From the NCBI RefSeq assembly GCF_000332315.1, contig NZ_KB235941.1:1062964-1096005 (forward strand): a DNA stretch of 33,042 nt. The letters are read 5' to 3'. The DNA is from Prochlorothrix hollandica PCC 9006 = CALU 1027 (GTDB taxonomy: Bacteria; Cyanobacteriota; Cyanobacteriia; Prochlorotrichales; Prochlorotrichaceae). Below are positions 4,212-24,299 of the stretch, in pieces. Under the pieces are notes generated by a model. That model saw only the letters and a program-made list of their open reading frames with translations. It was not told where the DNA came from and searched no databases. Numbering within the stretch: the stretch's first letter is position 1; every line of letters begins with the position of its first letter. Both the position numbers and the translations under genes were made by a program.

Positions 4212-5279
4212 ATGTCTTTCGATAAACTACAGCCTTTTTTAGCCCCTAGTTATGAGAATTTCCCCAAGGGCCGCACCATTGGGACCGTGATTCTCCGCAC
4301 CACCCAGTCGGAAACCATTTTCCGCACCGAAGGCAGTGGCGAACCCCTCTGTAGTGAATATGTGGCCGCAGGGGTGAGCGATTCCCAGATTATTCCGCGC
4401 CTAGTCATGACAAAACGTAAGCAAATCGCCCCAGAACGGCGTAAAGGGCGGGAATTTCTGCGGGCCTTTGATCTGCTGCGCACAGATACTAAAACTAACA
4501 GCCTTTGCTCCCTTAACACCAATGCCCCCTGCGAAATGTGCATTGACTGCTTCCTCTATGGCTTCGCGGCGGGGGGAGGCGGTGCCCAAAAGAGCCGAGT
4601 TTGGACAGAGGATGCCTTTAGTGTGCTGTCCGCCACCGAGCTAGTGGGCGATCGCACCATCAATGCCATTTACGAAAACGGCACCATGCGCCTCAAAAAA
4701 GACGAATCTAACGAATCCAAAGCCTCCACTGCCTTAAATACCAGTGAGTATATTAAGCCAGGGGTTCACTTCCTGGATGTGGTCACCTTCAAGGATGTCA
4801 CCGCCGACGAACTGCGCTATGGTCTCGGCAATATTCTGCTCACCACCCGTTATGGTGCCGTCTCCAGCCGAGTTGGGCGGATGGATAACCAAATTCTAGG
4901 CATCTTTGGCGGAATTGCTGAATTACCTAGTTCTCTGGAGTTGGTGCAGGGAGTCTATGATCAGCTTGTGGCTGATCTCCAAAATAAACCCAACGGCCCC
5001 AGCGATCGCCCAGAACACCCCTTCAGCACCGCTACCTTAACCGAAGCCACCCAAACCGTCCTAGCCTCCTGGATCCACAAGCGAGGCATCACCGTGCAAC
5101 TCACCCCCGACGAACTGACGGCCCTCATTGCCGACCTAGACCAGCACCTAGAGCCAGATCACCAGGAAGCCTTTCTACGGCGCTTGGATCAGTCCTATGA
5201 GTCCCTGCGGCACGTTAACCCAGATCAAGGCAAGAAAAAGTCGAAAAATCAAGCTAAAGCCGCAGAGCAGGGAGCTTAA
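4212..5279 (+). CDS. csc2: Type I-D CRISPR backbone protein Cas7 (Csc2)
   Basis: The 355-residue protein matches the Csc2/Cas7 family, which polymerises along the crRNA to form the backbone of the type I-D effector. Recognisable segments are LQPFLAPSYENFPKGRT at the N-terminus and RKGREFLRAFDLLRTDT. A cysteine cluster CSLNTNAPCEMCIDC (C99, C107, C110, C113) followed by FLYGFAAGGGG is the zinc-binding and glycine-rich region characteristic of Csc2. RYGAVSSRVGRMDNQI lies further on. The charged, lysine-rich C-terminus (GKKKSKNQAKAAEQ) is typical low-complexity tail. A TTAGGAG ribosome binding site lies eight bases before the ATG. The gene stops three bases before the csc1 start, so the two are translated together. 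Confidence 0.93.
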   Translation: MSFDKLQPFLAPSYENFPKGRTIGTVILRTTQSETIFRTEGSGEPLCSEYVAAGVSDSQIIPRLVMTKRKQIAPERRKGREFLRAFDLLRTDTKTNSLCSLNTNAPCEMCIDCFLYGFAAGGGGAQKSRVWTEDAFSVLSATELVGDRTINAIYENGTMRLKKDESNESKASTALNTSEYIKPGVHFLDVVTFKDVTADELRYGLGNILLTTRYGAVSSRVGRMDNQILGIFGGIAELPSSLELVQGVYDQLVADLQNKPNGPSDRPEHPFSTATLTEATQTVLASWIHKRGITVQLTPDELTALIADLDQHLEPDHQEAFLRRLDQSYESLRHVNPDQGKKKSKNQAKAAEQGA

Positions 5280-5282
5280 CCC

Positions 5283-6071
5283 ATGAAACAACTGGAGTTA
5301 ATTGCCCTCACCCCCGCCCCAGCCCCCTACACCACCGCCCGACTCCTGGAACTGTGGTGCGCTGAACCCGTGTTTTTTGCCTCGCGGGAACTGTCCGACA
5401 CCTACTACACCGAAGCCACCCTGGGCAACTATGCCCTCAGCTATGCCCTGGGTTGGGCACGATCGCCCTACCGACTCCAGGGAAAAGCCACCGGGCGACC
5501 CACCTATAAAGAGGATTTAGCCCCCTTACGGGGTCAAGCCTACATTCTCCCGGCATGGCCCTTAGAATCTGGGGTTTCCTTCCGCTTTGAGCGTTTTAAT
5601 GCCCTCTCCGATTCTTATTGGTATGCCATGACCAATAACCGGGTTGCCATCGCACGGGAGGATCTGCCCCTACAGCGCACTGGGGCCAAACCCAGTAGCT
5701 ACCGCCCCAGCAACTTCCCCCAAACCGGTCGCTTACGGCTAATTGAGCGGGGTAGTCGGTTCCAAACCCTGGTTTTGGGCGATCGGGAACTGCCCCACTA
5801 TATCCGGGTCGGCAAGTTCATGGCCAAGGTGCGGGTTGAAATCAAAGACCAGTTCCCCGTTGTGCCCTTAGGGGTAGCAGACTATCACTGCCAGGGCTAT
5901 CTCAACTCTGCCGACTTACCCAAGGGCTTAGACCTGCTGAGCTTTGATTTACTGTCTATTCCCCCTGCTTCTCTCCTCAAAAACCTACGATTTCGGGGAG
6001 AAGCATGGCAGGTGGGTCCCTTTACCCTTCCCGCACACCTCCAATTTTGTAACGGCTATGAGCCTGACTAA
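5283..6071 (+). CDS. csc1: Type I-D CRISPR protein Cas5 (Csc1)
   Basis: The 262-residue protein corresponds to Csc1, the Cas5-like subunit that caps the 5' handle of the crRNA in the type I-D complex. The N-terminus (LIALTPAPAPYTTARLLELWCAEPVFFASRELSD) leads into TYYTEATLGNYALSYALGWA, a conserved Csc1 stretch. The sequence RVGKFMAKVRVE near residues 178-190 also fits. The start lies only three bases after the csc2 stop and its 3' end overlaps cas3' by 14 bases, indicating translational coupling within one operon. No catalytic residues are expected; identification rests on these motifs and on the fixed csc2-csc1 neighbourhood. Confidence 0.9.
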   Translation: MKQLELIALTPAPAPYTTARLLELWCAEPVFFASRELSDTYYTEATLGNYALSYALGWARSPYRLQGKATGRPTYKEDLAPLRGQAYILPAWPLESGVSFRFERFNALSDSYWYAMTNNRVAIAREDLPLQRTGAKPSSYRPSNFPQTGRLRLIERGSRFQTLVLGDRELPHYIRVGKFMAKVRVEIKDQFPVVPLGVADYHCQGYLNSADLPKGLDLLSFDLLSIPPASLLKNLRFRGEAWQVGPFTLPAHLQFCNGYEPD

Positions 6072-8355
6072 CCTGACCCTGCCCCTGGAAGCCCGCACCA
6101 TTGCCCCTTGCCCCAACCCGGATCTGCCCCCCCACCTGTTGCGGGCCTTTGGCACCGGAGTCCTCCAACACCAAGCGGCGGTTTATCGGGCGGCAGCAGA
6201 CCATGATATTGTCTTGGACTTGGCCCCCACAGGCACCGGCAAAACTAAGGCGGGCTTAAGTGTCCTCGACTACAACCGCGATCGCAATGCCATCTACATT
6301 GCCCCCACCAATGCCCTGATTGAGCAGCAAACCGCAGCGGCTCAAGCCTTTGTGACAGCGGCAGGCTGGAGCCATCTGGTCAAAGCAGCGTCGGCGGAAA
6401 CCGTCAAAACTTGGGTTTGCCACACCCAAACCAAGCGCTCTGGGGAAAAACTCTATAACGCCCTGCGGGAACCGGCCAATGTTTTCCCCGACTGTCGGGG
6501 CGGTCAGCCTGTGCTGTTGGTCACTAACCCCGATATTTTCTATTACGCCACCTTTTTTGCCTATGGTCGCCTCGATCGCACTAACATCGCCAGCGAGTTC
6601 TACAGTGGATTTTCAACCCTTATTTTTGATGAATTTCATCTCTATAATGCCAAGCAACTCGTTAGTCTCTTGTTCTACCTAGCCCTATCCCAGGTTTTTG
6701 GCTATTTCGACCATAATCGCAAGGTGGTGTTACTAACAGCAACCCCAGAACGGGCCTGCACAGCAGCCCTAGAGGTTTTAAGTCAGGCGGGGGTTCGCAT
6801 CCAACAAGTGACGGGGGAGGAGGCGGGGGGAGACCCCTTACCTTCCCAAACTGCCGTCACCCTGACGTTGCAGCCCATGGTGGCCAAAGATGCCCTGATC
6901 ACCGCCATTAGCCAGGAAGTGATCGATCGCCTACGCCACCAGCCCCACCAACAGGGGGCAGTGATTTTGGATGGCAAAGACACTTTAAACCGTGTCTGGG
7001 ATCAGCTTGAAAAGAAGGGCTATGGGGCTGTTTGTGGCCGCATTACGGGTAATACGCCCATTTGCGATCGCCACACTGCCGCCCAAAAGCAGGTGATTCT
7101 GGCCACTAGTACGGTGGATGTGGGCTTTAATTTTGAGCGGGATATTGCCCCCGATCGCCAAAATCTGGACTGGCTGATCTACAGCGCCCGCGATCGTTTT
7201 TCCTTTTGGCAACGCTTGGGACGGGTGGGCCGGGTGCTAGGTAAGAAAATCACCACGATTCCCTCCACAGCCACGGCCTATCTCCCAGAAGCAGCCTGGG
7301 ATCAAGGTTTAGGCCAGGAGTCCATAGCCGGGGGGCGGGTGGCCCTGACCCAAGCCCTAGAACAACTGCCCTGTTTAGATCGCCCTTTTTTGGAGATTTA
7401 CTGGCGATCGGAAGCCTTTCTGGAAGTCGCTAAACCCCTCCTGGAACTGGAAAGCAAACTAGAAAACCTACCCCAGGCTGATCTGATTCTTAAACTCTAC
7501 CAAATCCTACAAACCCTGTTTGGCGGTAAACGCAACTGGCAATTTTACCGAACCCGGATGAAACAAATTCAGGGAGCAGAACAGATTGCCAATGCCGATT
7601 GTACTACCATTAAAACCAAGTGGCGATATCTAGCAGGAGGGCAGAATTTTGTGATGAGCTACATCAAAACCTATTGCCCAGAAAGCTATCAGGAACACGG
7701 GTCGGATGATTTCCTAGATCAGATCGCTGAGGCTATTAAAACCGATCCCAATCTGGTCCACAATCTCAAGGAATACGCCAAGATTCTCCAGGCCAGCTAT
7801 GCCCCATTATTCCAGTTTCGGGACAGCCTCTTTGAGAACCTCAAAATTGAAGATCCCCGCAAGTTGCTGCTGGATGCAGGGGGACAGACCCTCCTCGATC
7901 CCATTCATCTGTTGCGATTTTATGAGTTTATTGCTGATGGCGATGTCAGTATTCTGACGAGCCGAGCAGAACAATCCTATCAATTATCTTTTTCCCACAG
8001 GGTTAAGGATGGCACTCTCGAAGATTTTGAATCGGAGTGCCTCTGCCGTTTATATGCCTTTGATCAGGTCTCTATTCGACGCACGATCGACGGCATACCT
8101 CGGCCCACCCCCCTAATTCAGCAGCTTCAAAAGGAGTTAATGGCGGGACTAGTGGTTAAGGAAAACATGAACAGTCGCTGGGCCATTTGTAAATTACAGA
8201 AACAGGGATTAAGTTGCTATGATTTAGCCGTTGAAGGCTGTGATGGTTCTCAGGGATATTATAAATTTTTCCCCAGCCTGTCGGGAATTTTGGCCTTGGC
8301 GACAGCGGGTTTTGCCTTCCAAGCCCCCGATCGCGAAGAATTCTGGGTCATTTAA
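6058..8355 (+). CDS. cas3: Type I-D CRISPR helicase Cas3' (no HD domain)
   Basis: The 765-residue protein is a superfamily 2 helicase. It has motif I APTGTGKT (56-63), motif Ia IAPTNALIEQQ (81-91), a DEFH Walker B box (191-194), motif III LLTATP (225-230), ILATSTVDVGFNF (347-359) and motif VI QRLGRVGR (385-392). It unwinds target DNA after the I-D effector has bound. There is no N-terminal HD nuclease, as expected when that activity sits in Cas10d. I start it at the ATG at 6058 (MSLTNLTLPLEA), which overlaps the csc1 stop by 14 bases; an earlier in-frame start at 5944 would bury the N-terminus in csc1. In many I-D loci cas3' precedes cas10d, whereas here it follows csc1. The gene is intact. 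Confidence 0.9.
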   Translation: MSLTNLTLPLEARTIAPCPNPDLPPHLLRAFGTGVLQHQAAVYRAAADHDIVLDLAPTGTGKTKAGLSVLDYNRDRNAIYIAPTNALIEQQTAAAQAFVTAAGWSHLVKAASAETVKTWVCHTQTKRSGEKLYNALREPANVFPDCRGGQPVLLVTNPDIFYYATFFAYGRLDRTNIASEFYSGFSTLIFDEFHLYNAKQLVSLLFYLALSQVFGYFDHNRKVVLLTATPERACTAALEVLSQAGVRIQQVTGEEAGGDPLPSQTAVTLTLQPMVAKDALITAISQEVIDRLRHQPHQQGAVILDGKDTLNRVWDQLEKKGYGAVCGRITGNTPICDRHTAAQKQVILATSTVDVGFNFERDIAPDRQNLDWLIYSARDRFSFWQRLGRVGRVLGKKITTIPSTATAYLPEAAWDQGLGQESIAGGRVALTQALEQLPCLDRPFLEIYWRSEAFLEVAKPLLELESKLENLPQADLILKLYQILQTLFGGKRNWQFYRTRMKQIQGAEQIANADCTTIKTKWRYLAGGQNFVMSYIKTYCPESYQEHGSDDFLDQIAEAIKTDPNLVHNLKEYAKILQASYAPLFQFRDSLFENLKIEDPRKLLLDAGGQTLLDPIHLLRFYEFIADGDVSILTSRAEQSYQLSFSHRVKDGTLEDFESECLCRLYAFDQVSIRRTIDGIPRPTPLIQQLQKELMAGLVVKENMNSRWAICKLQKQGLSCYDLAVEGCDGSQGYYKFFPSLSGILALATAGFAFQAPDREEFWVI

Positions 8356-8425
8356 GCCCAGATAAACCCCAAATCTGTTAGTAACCAGATAACGTCAGAC
8401 GATTATTAAGGGAGTCCATCGATCG

Positions 8426-9031
8426 ATGAAAATCCTGAGTTCAGACCGATCCTATACCTTTAGTCAGATTTTTGACCTGACGGAGGAGGTGGATGATATT
8501 GTGGCGGATTTTGGCTATGGCTTCGATCGCCAAAAACTTAACCTACCCCCCTATCCCGGATCCCTAGACAGACTCCAGGAACTCCAGGATCGCATTGAAT
8601 AAATTCTGCCCTTTGTCAACTTAACCACAGAAATGGCCCGCCGTGAAATTTTGATCTCACGGGTTTTAACAGAGGTGGTTCACTACACCAAAGCTCAACT
8701 GCGCATTGAATATCCCCTCAAGGTTTCTCAACATTTACAGGGGTATCTCGGTTATTTATTGACCAAACAGCAGCAGATCATCGTCACTGAAGCCAAAAAG
8801 GAAGATATCACCAATGGCATTAAACAATTAGGGGTTGAACTGATTGCCCTAGATCAATGGCTGGAATCGTCTCAACCGGTTTTAATGGGCGCTATCACGA
8901 CGGGAACTCTCTGGCAGTTTGTTCAGTTAGACCGCCACCACCACCAAATCCACCAAGGCTTAGAAAGCTACCGTGTCCCAGAGGATCTTAATGTTTTGCT
9001 GCCAATTTTAGTGCAGTCTCTCCTGGCTTAA
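8426..9031 (+). pseudogene. Cyanobacterial EAK-motif (PD-(D/E)XK-like) protein broken by a nonsense codon
   Basis: A 58-residue frame (8426-8602, MKILSSDRSYTFSQIFDLTEE, ending LQELQDRIE) is followed in the same frame, without a gap, by ILPFVNLTTEMARRE and the rest of a protein to 9031. The TAA at 8600-8602 stands where a glutamate (GAA) would make RIEEILPF, the continuation I recall from intact members of this cyanobacterial family, so one G-to-T change explains it. The C-terminal half has VTEAKKEDITNGIKQL followed by ELIALDQW, resembling a PD-(D/E)XK nuclease core. The upstream aspartate usually seen before YLL appears as glycine here (GYLGYLL). The family function is unknown to me. It sits between cas3' and cas6, 70 bp after cas3', where it does not belong to the standard I-D set. 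Confidence 0.7.
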
Positions 9032-9075
9032 GCCCCGGTTTGTTGTCTTTATCCAGATGTCGGTTGGTTTAAGGT

Positions 9076-9133
9076 GCAAAACCCAATGGCCACAATGGTT
9101 ATGTTAGGTTTCGTAAGGCTCTACCCAACCTAC
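9076..9133. repeat. Partial copy of the GTAGGTTGGG dispersed repeat
   Basis: The segment starts CAAAACCCAATGGCC, continues TTAGGTTTCG and ends TCTACCCAACCTAC. It is the same pattern as the fragment that ends the copy near 19889 and a degenerate stretch after 14958. It lacks the left terminus and appears to be a decayed copy of the repeat family that recurs four more times in this window. Confidence 0.65.
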
Positions 9134-9180
9134 GGAAAAGGACTGAAGTCCTTACTACGAACGAAGACCGATCGTCGATC

Positions 9181-9297
9181 GTAGGTTGGGTAGAGGAACG
9201 AAACCCAACAAGAGACCTTACAAAACTGGCTGTTGGGTTTCGCCCTGGGATGTTGTGACAACGAACCCAAAATGGTTCCAAGCTCAACCCAACCTAC
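9181..9297. repeat. Dispersed MITE-like repeat, GTAGGTTGGG family
   Basis: A 117-bp segment begins GTAGGTTGGGTAGAGGAAC and ends AAGCTCAACCCAACCTAC, so its ends are inverted repeats. Internally it has CGAAACCCAACA and its inverse TGTTGGGTTTCG. It has filled the space just upstream of cas6 and gives that gene a spurious 5' extension in open frame. The promoter context of cas6 must therefore be within or downstream of this repeat, or cas6 is transcribed through it. Confidence 0.85.
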
Positions 9298-9358
9298 GGG
9301 AACTCCAGGTTTTTTGCCCAATTTGCTGCCCGATTTGTTGTTTTTACCCGGTTCTACC

Positions 9359-10249
9359 ATGCCCCATAGTTTGGTGTTTAACTTCCTGCCCCAGTCCCCT
9401 ATTCCCCCCGGCTTTACGGCGGGGAAAGCCCTCCATGGGTTGTTTTTGAATTTGGTCAGTTCTGTGGATCCTGATCTGGGCACGAAGCTCCATGGCAATG
9501 AAGCCCAAAAAGCCTTTAGCCTCAGTCCCTTGCAGCTAGAGCGGGGGAGTGGGCTACGATCGCGCCCCATTCCCAAGAAACCCACCAAACCTCACTACAC
9601 CCTGACCTACAGCCACCAGAACCCCATTGAGGCGGGCCAGGGCTGTTGGTGGCGGGTAACCTTGCTGGACGATCGCCTGTTTGGCCACCTCAGCCCCCTC
9701 TGGCTGAACCTGAACCCCCGGCAACCCTGGCATCTGGGTCCGTCGGATCTGCACATTATTAGTGTGCTGGGCAGTGCCCACAGTGACCACCCCTGGGCCG
9801 ATTTCGCCAGTTATGGGGAGTTGTACGATCGCGCCTCGGACAGTGCCCGCAGTCTGACCCTCCAGTTCTGTACCCCCATGGCGTTCCGTCAGGGGCGTTT
9901 CGATTCGGCTCTCCCGACTCCGGAGGCGGTGTTTGGCAGTTTGCTGCGGCGCTGGAATCACTACAGCGATCGACCCTTGGATGCAGCGATCGTGGCGGCG
10001 GTGCAACCCAGTGCTTTTGAGGTGCGGACGGTGGTGGTGACGGATCCCCGTAGTCAGTTCCAGGAGATGGGGGCGCGGGTCAATTCCTGCAATCAGTTTG
10101 TGGGCTGTGTCGGTCAGGTGCGCTATCAGGTGCTGGGTCCCCAGGATCCGGAGGTGGTGAAGCAGTTGAATACCCTGGCAGATTTCGCCATGTTTGGGGG
10201 GGTGGGCCGAAAAACCACGATGGGCATGGGTATTGTTCGGCGTTTGTAG
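9359..10249 (+). CDS. cas6: CRISPR RNA endoribonuclease Cas6 (type I-D)
   Basis: The 296-residue protein cuts the long array transcript within each repeat to give crRNAs with an 8-nt 5' handle. It begins MPHSLVFNFLPQSPIPPGFT, and its C-terminus has the glycine-rich RNA-binding loop GGVGRKTTMGMG (280-291) typical of Cas6. Histidines near the N-terminus (H26 in KALHG, H45 in TKLHG) are candidates for the catalytic base. The open frame extends upstream to 9233, but that part lies in a dispersed repeat, so the ATG at 9359 is the better start. The gene lies next to the array, whose repeat has a small hairpin directly before ATTGAAAC, the expected cut site. It is separated from cas3' by a pseudogene and repeats, so it may have its own promoter. 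Confidence 0.88.
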   Translation: MPHSLVFNFLPQSPIPPGFTAGKALHGLFLNLVSSVDPDLGTKLHGNEAQKAFSLSPLQLERGSGLRSRPIPKKPTKPHYTLTYSHQNPIEAGQGCWWRVTLLDDRLFGHLSPLWLNLNPRQPWHLGPSDLHIISVLGSAHSDHPWADFASYGELYDRASDSARSLTLQFCTPMAFRQGRFDSALPTPEAVFGSLLRRWNHYSDRPLDAAIVAAVQPSAFEVRTVVVTDPRSQFQEMGARVNSCNQFVGCVGQVRYQVLGPQDPEVVKQLNTLADFAMFGGVGRKTTMGMGIVRRL

Positions 10250-15839: not shown

Positions 15840-17036
15840 TTAAGGATGATCCTTAGGCTCCTCAAACTGTTTCTTTTCCTGGATTACCGCTTCATTCAAG
15901 TCCAGACCGGGGTAAGTGGAGGTATAGGGCGATCGGCCCAACAGCCGTGTCACCTGATCCCAGGCCCGGAACCGCAGCCAGCCCACCACCCCATCGGGCA
16001 GCACCGTCACCACCAACAGGAACAGCGCCCCCTGGAAAAAGAGCCACACCTCTGGGAACTTCTCACTGAGCAAACTGCGGCCATAGTTCACCGCCACAGC
16101 CCCGACGATCGCCCCCACCAAGGTAGCTCGTCCCCCCACCGCCACCCAGATCACCATCTCAATGGAAAAGGCAATATCCATATATTGGGGTGAGACAATG
16201 CCCGACTGCACCGTATACAGGGCACCGGCAATGCCCGCCATCGCGCCCGAAACGGCAAAGACCACCACCTTAAACAGTGTGGGATTATAGCCCGAAAAAC
16301 GCACCCGACTTTCATCGTCCCGGATGGCCACCAGTAACCGGCCAAAACGCCCACTGGTCAAGCCTCGGCAGAGAATATAAATAACCGCCAACATCAACAC
16401 CGTCAGCACATAAAACTGAAACTGCATCTCAGGACTGCCCACCTCCTGGCCAAACAGAAACTGGGTAGAGGTTTTGAGACCATTGGTGCCGTTGATTAGT
16501 TTTTGTTGACCATTGAAAAGATTGAAAAACACCACCAAGGCCGCTTGGGTCAAAATCGAAAAATAGACCCCCCGAATGCGGTTGCGGAACACCAGGTAGC
16601 CTAAAATAGCCGCTACTACCAAGGGGAGCACCACGATCGCCCCTAGGGTGAAGGGAAACGAATAAAACGGTTGCCAAAAACCGGGTAACTCCGACACCCC
16701 ATAGAGGGTAAAAAATTCAGGTAATTGGCCCGCTGGTTGGCCCGCTGGCAATTGCAAGTTGAGGTGCATGGCCAAGGCATAGCCCCCCAAGGCAAAGAAA
16801 ATGCCATGGCCCAGGCTCAGTAGCCCTGTAAAGCCCCAAATTAAGTCAATCCCCAGGGCCACGATCGCCAAGGCCAGAAAACGACCCAGCAAGGTTAACC
16901 GAAAATCCGACAGGATCAGGGGCAGGATCAGGGTTAGCACCAGGACCACTCCCCCCAGCCACAGCCCTTCCGTCAGCAACGCCTGCTTGCGTCCGCCGTT
17001 GCCCTCCCCTGTTGCCATTGTGCGACTCACCACCAT
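15840..17036 (-). CDS. urtC: Urea ABC transporter permease UrtC
   Basis: The 398-residue membrane protein belongs to the LivM-type permeases of branched-chain amino acid and urea transporters. It has about ten hydrophobic segments and the family stretches GIDLIWGFTGLLSLGHG, VLTQAALVVFFNLFNG, TNGLKTSTQFLFG and RVRFSGYNPTLFKVVVFAVSG, plus AGIAGALYTVQSGIVSPQYM, which covers the loop contacting the ATPase. UrtC pairs with UrtB to form the channel for urea in the plasma membrane. It follows urtB on the same strand, but 455 bp of repeats separate them. Normally urtD and urtE follow; here the next gene, tsaC, faces the other way, so the ATPase genes must be elsewhere. An ATG start at 17036 is used; an internal ATG at codon 7 is possible. 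Confidence 0.94.
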   Translation of the reverse strand: MVVSRTMATGEGNGGRKQALLTEGLWLGGVVLVLTLILPLILSDFRLTLLGRFLALAIVALGIDLIWGFTGLLSLGHGIFFALGGYALAMHLNLQLPAGQPAGQLPEFFTLYGVSELPGFWQPFYSFPFTLGAIVVLPLVVAAILGYLVFRNRIRGVYFSILTQAALVVFFNLFNGQQKLINGTNGLKTSTQFLFGQEVGSPEMQFQFYVLTVLMLAVIYILCRGLTSGRFGRLLVAIRDDESRVRFSGYNPTLFKVVVFAVSGAMAGIAGALYTVQSGIVSPQYMDIAFSIEMVIWVAVGGRATLVGAIVGAVAVNYGRSLLSEKFPEVWLFFQGALFLLVVTVLPDGVVGWLRFRAWDQVTRLLGRSPYTSTYPGLDLNEAVIQEKKQFEEPKDHP

Positions 17037-17047
17037 AATCGGACTCT

Positions 17048-17145
17048 CTTGTACGTGCTTACTTGTGCGTGCTTACTTGTACGTGCTTACTTGTGCGTGC
17101 TTACTTGTGCGTGCTTACTTGTGCGTGCTTACTTGTGCGGGCTGA
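17048..17145. repeat. Seven tandem 14-bp repeats upstream of urtC
   Basis: Seven head-to-tail copies of CTTGTRCGTGCTTA run from 17048 to 17145; units one and three have A at the variable site and the last is CTTGTGCGGGCTGA. The array starts 11 bp from the urtC start codon, so in the urtB-urtC transcript it would lie in the ribosome loading region. A stretch so regular is expected to vary in copy number. Confidence 0.95.
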
Positions 17146-17173: not shown

Positions 17174-17437
17174 CCCTCACCCTAAATCCCTCTCCCAGAG
17201 TCTACTGTGTACACACAAATGGATCTAAACCTCAAACCCCTGATGCTAGCGCCCCTCGCCCCCCAATTTCGGGAAGAAATGCCATCTGATTCCCCTCCTT
17301 TGGAGGGGTAGGGGTGGTTTAACCTGGCGATCGCAGCAGAGGATTAGCAATACTCCGAGTTATGTGTACACGGTAGCTCCCAGAGTGGGAAAGGGACTTT
17401 GAAGAAATCTGTCTGTCCTTCTCCAGTTGGCTGAGGG
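17174..17437. repeat. Palindromic CCCTCACCC repeat split by a MITE
   Basis: The left part (17174-17201, CCCTCACCCTAAATCCCTC and onward) and the right part (17387-17437, GGGAAAGGGACTTTGAA, then TCCTTCTCCA and GGCTGAGGG) together make one copy of the repeat seen whole at 18738-18833. The two parts are pushed apart by the 175-bp element at 17202-17376 plus its duplicated target. The right part also lacks one of the two hairpins of the intact copy. Confidence 0.85.
17202..17376. mobile_element. 175-bp MITE with terminal inverted repeats and 10-bp target duplication
   Basis: The element starts CTACTGTGTACACA and ends TGTGTACACGGTAG, inverted repeats matching at 13 of 14 positions. It is bordered on both sides by CTCCCAGAGT (17192-17201 and 17377-17386), a perfect 10-bp direct duplication. 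It has no coding capacity and must be moved by a transposase encoded elsewhere; the target length would suit an IS4-like enzyme, but that is inference. Inside it, near 17294-17320, lies yet another palindromic motif (CCCCTCCTTTGGAGGGG), and it contains GCGATCGC. Confidence 0.88.
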
Positions 17438-17473
17438 CAGCGGAATCCGGTGCTGAGGGCAGCGGAATCCGGT
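17430..17473. repeat. Two tandem copies of a 22-bp unit
   Basis: The unit starts GCTGAGGGCAGCGG and ends AATCCGGT; it occurs at 17430-17451 and again at 17452-17473 without a spacer and without change. It lies 18 bp from the urtB stop codon. Perfect identity suggests a recent duplication. Confidence 0.9.
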
Positions 17474-17491: not shown

Positions 17492-18664
17492 CTAGGCATC
17501 CACCGTGCGACCCTTTTGGGGGAACATCCCCGCTGGCCGAATCTGGAGGAAACCAATGATCAACGCAAAAACTAACACCTTAGCCATACTGGTGGTGGCA
17601 AAGAAATTAACCAGATCAATCAGGGGTTGCAGGGCTTCCGATTGGACGGAGGTCAAAACCGTCGCCAAGGTGCCAGAACCGACCACATAGCTGACGGTAC
17701 CAATGGCCAAGGCAGCGACAATGCTTCCCACCAACTTACCCACACCCCCCACGACCACCACCATAAAGGCATCCACAATGTAGTTACCCCCCAGGTTGGG
17801 TCCGACGGAGCCGAGGAGCGTGACGGCGCAACCGGCCACCCCCGCCAACCCGGAACCCAGGGCAAAGGTGAGGGCATCGACGGTGTTGGTGGGAATGCCG
17901 AGACAGGAACTCATTTCCCGGTTCTGGGTCACGGCTCGGATGCGTAACCCCCAGGCCGATCGCTGCAAAAACCAGTAAACGCCCCCTAAACAGAGGGCTG
18001 TCAGCACAATGATAAAGAGGCGAGCATAGGGGAATTGAAAGGTGCCGATTTCCAGCCCCCCCTGTAACCAGCCGGGAGCGCTGACATCGATGTTGCGGGC
18101 GCTGAACCAGGGTTGCGCCAGCTTATCGGTTTTGTTCAACAGCAGACCGGTGCTGACGCTGATGCCACTGACCAGAGGGAGCAGCAGGGCGATCGCCCAA
18201 CCTCGGATTCTGTCCCAGTTGGGGCGGCGGCTGAGGAACCACATGGCTCCAAAAAACAGGGCTGAAAACAGCACCACGGCAATGGTCAGGGACCAACTGA
18301 CGCTGCGCACCCACTGCCGCAAAATCAGGCTTACGCCCCAGGTGGCCAGCAGGGTTTCCAGTGGTCGCCCGTAGAGATAGCGAATGACCCCCCGTTCCAG
18401 CAACAATCCCACCGCCGCCGCCATCAGAAAGGCAGCGGGTAAGGCAGCAAAAATATAGAGATTAAACAGGGCGGGGTTATCCATGGCCTTAAAGCCGTTT
18501 TGCACCACAAAGGTGGTGTAGGCTCCCAGCATCATCAGTTCCCCATGGGCCAGGTTAATGACCCCCATTAAGCCAAACACAATGGCTAGCCCCAGGGCAG
18601 CAAGGAGCAATACTGCACCGATGCTAATGCCGTTAAAAATACCGTCTAAGAGGGTTTGTACCAC
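17492..18664 (-). CDS. urtB: Urea ABC transporter permease UrtB
   Basis: The 390-residue LivH-type permease has about nine membrane segments. Family stretches are GIFNGISIGAVLLLAALGLA, FGLMGVINLAHGELMMLGAY, LLERGVIRYLYGRPLETLLA and the coupling-loop region RAVTQNREMSSCLGI followed by TFALGSGLAGVAG. It forms the urea channel with UrtC. A hydrophobic, non-conserved insert of about 60 residues (SWSLTIAVVLF to LLLNKTDK) separates the two halves, as in other UrtB proteins. The start is a GTG at 18664 with no strong ribosome binding site. In the usual urtABCDE order it should directly follow urtA; here a cold-shock-domain gene lies between them. Confidence 0.94.
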   Translation of the reverse strand: MVQTLLDGIFNGISIGAVLLLAALGLAIVFGLMGVINLAHGELMMLGAYTTFVVQNGFKAMDNPALFNLYIFAALPAAFLMAAAVGLLLERGVIRYLYGRPLETLLATWGVSLILRQWVRSVSWSLTIAVVLFSALFFGAMWFLSRRPNWDRIRGWAIALLLPLVSGISVSTGLLLNKTDKLAQPWFSARNIDVSAPGWLQGGLEIGTFQFPYARLFIIVLTALCLGGVYWFLQRSAWGLRIRAVTQNREMSSCLGIPTNTVDALTFALGSGLAGVAGCAVTLLGSVGPNLGGNYIVDAFMVVVVGGVGKLVGSIVAALAIGTVSYVVGSGTLATVLTSVQSEALQPLIDLVNFFATTSMAKVLVFALIIGFLQIRPAGMFPQKGRTVDA

Positions 18665-18919: not shown

Positions 18920-19657
18920 CTATCGCGGTCGCGGTGCCTGGGTCCATCCGGCAGCGATCGCCTCCGCCTCAGTACAAAACCACCGCTCCCCATGTTCTGG
19001 CTGAATGCGGGTTCCCTCGTATTCTGGCATCCCTGGAACGTGGTAAAACTTTTTGCTGTCGCTAATGGAAATATTGCCCTTGATGTTACACCCCGCATTA
19101 GAGGATCCTTGAGGGCTATTAGCAGAGGTTACCGTAACGCCAGAACCATTGGCATTGGGATTGAGGGTGGGGCGCGCGATCGGCGTGGGAGTTGGTTTAG
19201 GGGTGGCGGCAGGGCGGTTTACCGCTGCGGGGGGAGGCGTTGCCGCCACGGGGGCATTGGGTTTAGCCTGAACGATAGCCGGTGGTGGCCCGTTGTCTTT
19301 CAACCAGTAGTACACGGAGGCACCGACGACCACCGGGACTAACAGCACGACGATGCCCCAAGCAAACCCCTGGACACTGCCCTGGAGAACAGGGGTGGGT
19401 GTAGCTGATTTGGCAGAGGATCGCCCCGACGATCGGGGCTGGGAGGCCGTAACCCCGGCGATCGTGGCACGGTTTGCCTGGAGCTTGCCCTGGGGGTTGC
19501 GGCTGAGTTGATAGGTAATGATGTCCCCCACTTGGGGGCGACGAGACAATTTAGAGAGGGCACTGATGTGGAGAAAGACATCGGAATTGCCCTCATCAGG
19601 TTGAATAAATCCAAAGCCCCGATCGTCATGCCATTGCTTAAGGCGACCTCGATTCAT
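18920..19657 (-). CDS. Cold-shock domain, membrane anchor and C-terminal sunset-like domain protein
   Basis: From the ATG at 19657 the protein has 245 residues. Residues 1 to about 65 are a cold-shock domain with both RNA-binding motifs (GFGFIQPD and DVFLHIS). One hydrophobic helix follows (GIVVLLVPVVVGASVYYWL, roughly 100-120), then a proline- and alanine-rich linker. The compact C-terminal segment contains GCNIKGNISISDSKKFYHVPG and GERWFCTEAEAIAAGWTQA. The last part resembles the small 'sunset' or nuclease-tail domain found at the ends of bacterial envelope proteins. The layout predicts a cytoplasmic RNA-binding head and an exported tail. A TTG at 19669 would add four residues but is less likely. 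It lies between urtA and urtB on the same strand; a role in urea uptake is not implied. Its function is unknown. Confidence 0.8.
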   Translation of the reverse strand: MNRGRLKQWHDDRGFGFIQPDEGNSDVFLHISALSKLSRRPQVGDIITYQLSRNPQGKLQANRATIAGVTASQPRSSGRSSAKSATPTPVLQGSVQGFAWGIVVLLVPVVVGASVYYWLKDNGPPPAIVQAKPNAPVAATPPPAAVNRPAATPKPTPTPIARPTLNPNANGSGVTVTSANSPQGSSNAGCNIKGNISISDSKKFYHVPGMPEYEGTRIQPEHGERWFCTEAEAIAAGWTQAPRPR

Positions 19658-19769
19658 AAGCCAAACCAAATAACTAAACCTGAGAAATCATCAGAATTTA
19701 GTTTAGCCCATGGGCGAAGCTAGCCAAGTGGGCCTGGTTGAGTGACAAACGAGGGTCGCTGTAATCGCT

Positions 19770-23044: not shown

Positions 23045-24256
23045 CTAGGCGAATAGTCCAAGCTGTTCGCTGCACGGCTGGCTAGACAAAGCAGTCGGAT
23101 TGCCAGACATCCTGGTCTTACGCCCGTTCTTTGTCCATTTAGAGTCTTGGGTTAGCCCCAACCCAGACTTTTCGATATTTTTGGCGGCATTACCATCTCT
23201 ATCATGTTCGGTTCCGCAACTCACACAGAGGATGGAACGAACCGATAGAGCAACCTTGCCCCAACGAAAGCCACAATCAGAACAGATCTGACTGGTTGGC
23301 TCCCACCGACTGATGATCCTGACCTCTCGATCATTAACCATGTTGGCCTTGGCCTCGCACATGGTTCGTGCGGTGCCCCAACCTTGCTCACTGATGGCTC
23401 GTGCCAACTTCCGATTACCAAGCATATTCTTCACCGCCAGATCCTCCAACACCACCACTTGATTTTCGTGGATGAGCTGGGTCGTGGTCTTGTGCAGAAA
23501 GTCTTTTCGGATATTGGCCGTTTTTAGCTTCAGCTTTGCAAGGCGCAGCCTAGTCTTTGCGCGACGCTTAGACCCTTTAACTTGGCGGGCCAGCTTACGC
23601 TGAAACCGTCGCGTCTTGCGGTCTAACCGATTATATCCAGGGGATTCTACCCGATCACCTGTGCTGAGAAAGGCAAAGGTTTTGATGCCTAGATCTACCC
23701 CAATTGAGGGCCGTAGTGGCTCAATGTTGATGGGACTAATCTCCACTACAAAGCTGGCATGGTATTGCCCAGCCGTGTTACGGATAATGGTCACAGAGCT
23801 AGGTTCAGAGGGCAGTGGCCTTGACCACTTCACCTTGAAGCGGCCTAACTTGGCTAGTTCAAGCTTATTGCCCTTGAGGGAGAATCCCGTCCGAACAAAC
23901 CGTGCCGACTGTTGGTTCAGCTTCTTTTTGAACCGAGGGAAGCCCACCTTTGACCCTTTTCGTTTGCCGCTACGGCTCTCAAAAAAGTTCTTGAAGGCAG
24001 CACCTAAATCCTGAACCGACTGCTGCAAGGGCACGACTGACACATCGGCCAACCATTCCCGTTCAGCCGTCTTTTTGGCCTGAGTGATCACCAGCTTTTG
24101 CAGTTCAGCATTGCTAGGCCATTTCTCGCCCTGCGGCACTGACCGCACAATCGCCAGCGCGTCGTTGTACACAACTCGACAACACCCAAAAAGCTGATTC
24201 AGCCCTTTGACCTGTTGCGGTGTCGGATAAATTCGGTACTGGTATCGTACTTTCAT
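23045..24256 (-). CDS. tnpB: TnpB RNA-guided nuclease of an IS200/IS605-type element
   Basis: From the ATG at 24256 the protein has 403 residues. The RuvC acid residues are present: D188 in GVDLGIKTFA, E271 in VVLEDLAVKNM and D354 in HDRDGNAAKN. The zinc-finger cysteines are C325/C328 and C344/C347 (ICSDCG and LCVSCG). The N-terminal start KVRYQYRIYPTPQQ is classical for TnpB. Known TnpBs are guided by omega RNA to cut DNA next to a short TAM and help keep the element. All catalytic residues are intact, so the enzyme may be active. The ATG at 24265 (MVSMKVRY) is an alternative start adding three residues. Confidence 0.93.
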   Translation of the reverse strand: MKVRYQYRIYPTPQQVKGLNQLFGCCRVVYNDALAIVRSVPQGEKWPSNAELQKLVITQAKKTAEREWLADVSVVPLQQSVQDLGAAFKNFFESRSGKRKGSKVGFPRFKKKLNQQSARFVRTGFSLKGNKLELAKLGRFKVKWSRPLPSEPSSVTIIRNTAGQYHASFVVEISPINIEPLRPSIGVDLGIKTFAFLSTGDRVESPGYNRLDRKTRRFQRKLARQVKGSKRRAKTRLRLAKLKLKTANIRKDFLHKTTTQLIHENQVVVLEDLAVKNMLGNRKLARAISEQGWGTARTMCEAKANMVNDREVRIISRWEPTSQICSDCGFRWGKVALSVRSILCVSCGTEHDRDGNAAKNIEKSGLGLTQDSKWTKNGRKTRMSGNPTALSSQPCSEQLGLFA

Positions 24257-24299
24257 GCTAACCATGATAGCATAGATGGATAGACGATGGGTAGGTACA

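Follow-up and report, generated by a model that had tools for sequence, protein, structure and literature searches.

The 33,042-nt stretch of Prochlorothrix hollandica DNA that was analysed (the window) carries the co-directional urea-transporter genes urtB and urtC, and between them lies a block of nested repeats with a 175-bp element at its centre (Table 1). The first-pass annotation had placed this block inside what should be one operon. The two neighbours match TIGR03409 and TIGR03408. In the 78 relatives that carry both genes, the distance between them ranges from −21 to 424 bp (median 7 bp), versus 455 bp here; the wide gap is a derived state. The element accounts for 185 bp of it, and the rest includes tandem repeats of a 14-bp unit and a duplicated 22-bp unit. 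Directly upstream of urtC, about seven head-to-tail copies of the 14-bp unit CTTGTGCGTGCTTA occupy 17048–17145, and just past the palindrome the 22-bp unit GCTGAGGGCAGCGGAATCCGGT is perfectly tandem-duplicated (17430–17473). Between urtA and urtB, and on their strand, the window has a gene (18920–19669) whose N-terminal domain is cold-shock-like and whose C-terminal domain is a "sunset" domain, and neither urtD nor urtE follows urtC within the window, so the urt cluster has been loosened at more than one point.

Table 1. Features of the urtB–urtC intergenic block and its two flanking genes, in window coordinates
Feature	Position	Strand	Remarks
urtC, downstream neighbour	15840..17036	-	TIGR03408, E 7.6e-133
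Left half of REP-like palindrome, CCCTCACCCTAAAT; arm CCCTCTCCC (17188–17196), loop AGAGT (17197–17201)	17174..17201	+	dozens of uninterrupted genome copies
Target-site duplication CTCCCAGAGT, left copy	17192..17201	+	
Putative MITE, non-coding, 175 bp	17202..17376	+	8 copies at ≥95% pairwise identity in genome
Left terminal inverted repeat CTACTGTGTACACACAA	17202..17218	+	17 nt, 88% complementary
Internal palindrome CCCCTCC-TTT-GGAGGGG, then TAGGGGTGGTTT	17292..17308	+	in nearly all aligned copies
Right terminal inverted repeat, CTACCGTGTACACATAA when read on the minus strand	17360..17376	-	
Target-site duplication CTCCCAGAGT, right copy	17377..17386	+	
Right half of REP-like palindrome: arm GGGAAAGGG, then ACTTTGA	17387..17402	+	
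urtB, upstream neighbour	17492..18664	-	TIGR03409, E 1.9e-109

An element inside a REP-like palindrome

The ends of the element, CTACTGTGTACACA and CTACCGTGTACACA, match at 13/14 positions (15/17 when extended), and the two 10-bp duplications that flank its 175 bp are identical; these dimensions had been reported before, and our coordinates and letters agree with them to the base. Six-frame translation of the element gave no frame open throughout and none that resembles a transposase. A perfect 10-bp duplication has a chance of 4^-10 per try, and we do not attribute this one to chance because duplications recur with different sequences at other copies and because the end motif is in excess in the genome (below).

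The element splits a palindrome, CCCTCTCCC-AGAGT-GGGAAAGGG, at its loop. The earlier claim of a split exactly at the hairpin loop stands insofar as the loop is interrupted; the precise cut is at the 3′ edge of AGAGT, and the duplication spans the inner left arm and the loop. Removal of the insert and one duplication yields CCCTCACCCTAAATCCCTCTCCCAGAGTGGGAAAGGGACTTTGAAG, in which the palindrome is restored as CCCTCACCCTAAATCCCTCTCCC-AGAGT-GGGAAAGGGACTTTGAAG. This joined sequence has 60 matching stretches in at least 50 places of its own genome, mostly uninterrupted, a lower bound since 40/189 first-look candidates were scored. The target is thus REP-like, that is, a short palindrome in many copies. 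In a comparison that is paralogous, within the host genome, most of the empty-site matches cross the joint at 88–95% identity without the duplication (for example CCCTCTCCCAGAACGGGAGAGGG).

Three nested repeat families had also been proposed for the block. The REP-like palindrome and the element form a demonstrated nested insertion, but the inner palindrome belongs to the element: nearly all aligned copies have the motif, which is therefore a constitutive part, and we rejected a third nested insertion on that ground. Its inner stem varies between these copies, and it was probably captured by the element long ago.

A multicopy family in the host and a probable partner IS in other cyanobacteria

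The host genome (5.65 Mb, 13 contigs) gave 47 matches to the element, including eight copies that are 95–99% identical to one another and dozens of older ones that average ~79%. This genome has 24 occurrences of the end motif CTACYGTGTACACA versus 0 of a reversed control, and a looser form, CTACCGTGTACMCA, with one mismatch allowed, occurs 98 times versus 2 for its control. Among intact host copies, ten have perfect duplications of 10–11 bp and two have perfect duplications of 9 bp; the duplicated sequences differ between copies except for one target common to L003 and L006. A search for further copies with the same ends and duplications, suggested with the original description, thus succeeded in the host, with duplications of 9–11 bp, and the DNA search of relatives returned no copy of the element's body outside it. 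Some copies are irregular. In some old copies, at L043 (~1680–1750) and L070 (~850–945), a terminal repeat has grown into a short tandem array with units such as GTTAATGGGTACGCA and CAGTTGGGTACA, while L034 (from 1501) is an enlarged copy that looks like two fused copies and L037 (1501–1764) is an enlarged copy with an extra insert.

The ends of the element, and not its interior, match a full-length IS in other cyanobacteria. In a scan of the whole class, 98/390 genomes had the right-end motif, and two pairs of ends ~1.46 kb apart led to full-length elements at L204/L202 and L205. Full-length IS copies with CTACYGTGTACACA ends span 1478–1484 bp at L202, L224, L237, and L247, all with perfect 10–11-bp duplications; the frame is broken at L202 and open over 455 aa in the other three. 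Genome G304 holds at least 11 copies of identical score of an intact 1484-bp IS with the 455-aa frame, and the three that were examined (L224, L237, and L247) have their duplications inside CCCC...GGGG sites. The identical transposase scores suggest a recently active autonomous element. The IS at L205 has no matching duplication, which we read as later rearrangement or recombination.

This partner IS belongs to the IS4 family, which is defined by D(60-110)D(100-150)E spacing and a Y(2)R(3)E(6)K motif (De Palmenaer et al. 2008, PMC2266710). The protein encoded at L205 (P0001) matches the curated IS4-family model NF033590 at E 2.7e-110 (369 bits; cut-off 160) and resembles structures of the Tn5 transposase (E 3e-32). 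It has the arrangement D87-(103)-D191-(139)-E331 with a complete Y(2)R(3)E(6)K motif, YRWRWRIEQLFATLK, and the duplications around full-length and short copies are of ~10 bp (9–11 bp). In its DDE spacing, Y(2)R(3)E(6)K motif, and ~10-bp duplications the partner resembles IS50/Tn5 and the IS4 family at large, and its ends start 5′-CT as in the IS10, IS50, and ISPepr1 subgroups (PMC2266710).

The first-pass annotation had called for a transposase with the same ends, and we found one in other cyanobacteria and none in the host. The host genome has no match to NF033590 even at E 1 and none to the partner transposase protein; the NF033590 search works, since the model matched 14 other genomes in the same run. 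The host has 14 DDE_Tnp_1 loci, none of them lying between paired ends of the element's type, and a full-length partner was found in the host neither via unpaired ends nor via PF01609, the partner protein, or NF033590. The family is therefore orphaned in the host assembly (99% complete, 13 contigs), and with no fitting host transposase its mobilization would therefore have depended on a lost, unassembled, or foreign copy.

The element is shorter than ~400 bp, lacks a transposase gene, has ends in common with an autonomous IS, is flanked by a duplication, and is multicopy, and with the partner IS it shares both the 9–11-bp duplications and the target YCCC[CY...RG]GGGR. It thus appears to be a MITE, and from these likenesses we infer mobilization in trans by the partner transposase. 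We consider it highly probable that the block is a nonautonomous MITE, related at its ends to an IS4-family (IS50/Tn5-like) IS, that transposed into the axis of an existing REP-like palindrome between urtB and urtC. A transposase acting in trans would have bound the CTACYGTGTACACA ends and cut the C-tract/G-tract dyad target with a stagger of ~10 bp, and gap repair would then have produced the CTCCCAGAGT duplication. The cut-and-paste mechanism is presumed by analogy with the IS4 family. Which transposase moved the copy at the urt locus is likewise presumed, and the enzyme would later have been lost from the host genome.

Target choice and competing explanations

Among the eight young copies, three (L001, L003, and L006) interrupt the REP-like palindrome at one shared position; under uniform insertion the chance of this is ~1e-10 to 1e-9, a post hoc figure for which 180 favorable positions were assumed within 0.85 Mb of intergenic DNA. 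L001 is oriented one way with respect to the palindrome and L003 and L006 the opposite way, and their outer flanks differ; the three therefore represent at least two independent insertions. Across 30 clean targets (13 in the host and 17 in other genomes), the dyad consensus YCCC[CY...RG]GGGR is centered on the duplication. The target consensus of Tn5 differs from this pattern of a C-tract to the left and a G-tract to the right of, and inside, the duplication.

Reconstructed host targets also tend toward foldback, with a median stem of 4.5 versus 3 in the background (P = 4e-4, Mann–Whitney). A strict hairpin requirement was nevertheless rejected, as some cleanly duplicated targets form no hairpin (e.g., L020, L024, and L186). 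A sequence preference for C-tract/G-tract dyads is therefore the simpler rule. That the IS50-like transposase recognizes a foldback (the axis of a cruciform or hairpin), beyond C/G-tract sequence alone, seems unlikely to us. If it did, MITEs and ISs would use abundant cyanobacterial palindromic repeats as safe landing sites, and nested palindromes that still fold would arise.

One alternative is that the element has been kept for a hairpin that serves the urt operon in regulation or RNA processing, in which case a long foldback of REP arms and terminal repeats would attenuate or stabilize urtC mRNA. The block does lie between two co-directional genes, and its minus-strand RNA forms a single long hairpin (z −5.2). 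However, the fold is strong because the inverted repeats are nested, and these alone account for it; the same element is present at many other genome places, relatives have nearly no urtB–urtC gap, and the only sites that a terminator scan gave lie within the 14-bp tandem repeats and on the other strand from urtB and urtC. We regard such a retained function as very unlikely, and our guess is that the insertion has little effect on urt beyond a longer intergenic mRNA hairpin.

It is more improbable still that the REP and the element moved as one composite, with the loop position reflecting common descent rather than target choice. REPs are themselves dispersed repeats, and L001, L003, and L006 share both the REP and the position, but their two orientations within the REP largely refute joint movement. 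Their loops (AGAGT vs. AGAAC) differ as well as their outer flanks, and the remaining young copies occupy other C/G-tract sites with duplications of their own. Nor do we give any real credence to the idea that the element is left over from another transposon family whose ends are alike by chance. The host does lack a matching IS4_3-type transposase, as this would predict, but ends, duplication length, and target consensus all fit the IS4-type IS of other genomes, and paired ends bound 0/14 of the DDE_Tnp_1 loci that the host does have. Transposition of a MITE into the REP-like palindrome thus remains our preferred reading.

Relation to known systems and other genes in the window

Published precedents exist for both halves of this system: IS4-family targeting of REP axes (ISRm22) and a cyanobacterial MITE/IS pair (Nezha/ISNpu3). 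ISRm22 of Sinorhizobium meliloti is an IS4-family IS that inserts at the REP axis (Tobes and Pareja 2006, PMC1525189), and it resembles the present case in its IS4 type, its copies in REPs, and its insertion point at the axis of the palindrome. It is, however, a full-length IS of subgroup IS4Sa for which 6-bp direct repeats are reported (PMC1525189), whereas here a cyanobacterial MITE has 9–11-bp duplications and a partner IS with IS50-like ends and transposase. Nezha is likewise a cyanobacterial MITE for which mobilization by an IS with similar ends (ISNpu3-like) has been proposed, according to papers that cite the original work (Zhou, Tran and Xu 2008, cited in PMC3049150 and PMC3733652). 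Compared by description only, Nezha and the present MITE may be the same family; those citing accounts do not mention palindrome targeting. A literature text search for the literal end sequences gave no match.

What is added here is the specific MITE family, its partner IS, and the target consensus. An orphan MITE family of one cyanobacterium is linked to an autonomous IS4-type IS that has spread through the class, and an IS50-like case joins the known REP-targeting ISs. The dyad-symmetric consensus from 30 sites accounts for the frequent splitting of palindromic repeats, and the MITE/IS system is a tractable one in which to ask whether it is sequence or structure that makes palindromes a target.

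Elsewhere in the window, the gene at 23045–24265 encodes a TnpB-family RNA-guided nuclease, with no TnpA noticed nearby in the list of open reading frames, and type I-D CRISPR-Cas genes (Csc2, Csc1, and Cas3′) occupy 4212–10249 together with a Cas6-like protein that scores just below its cut-off.
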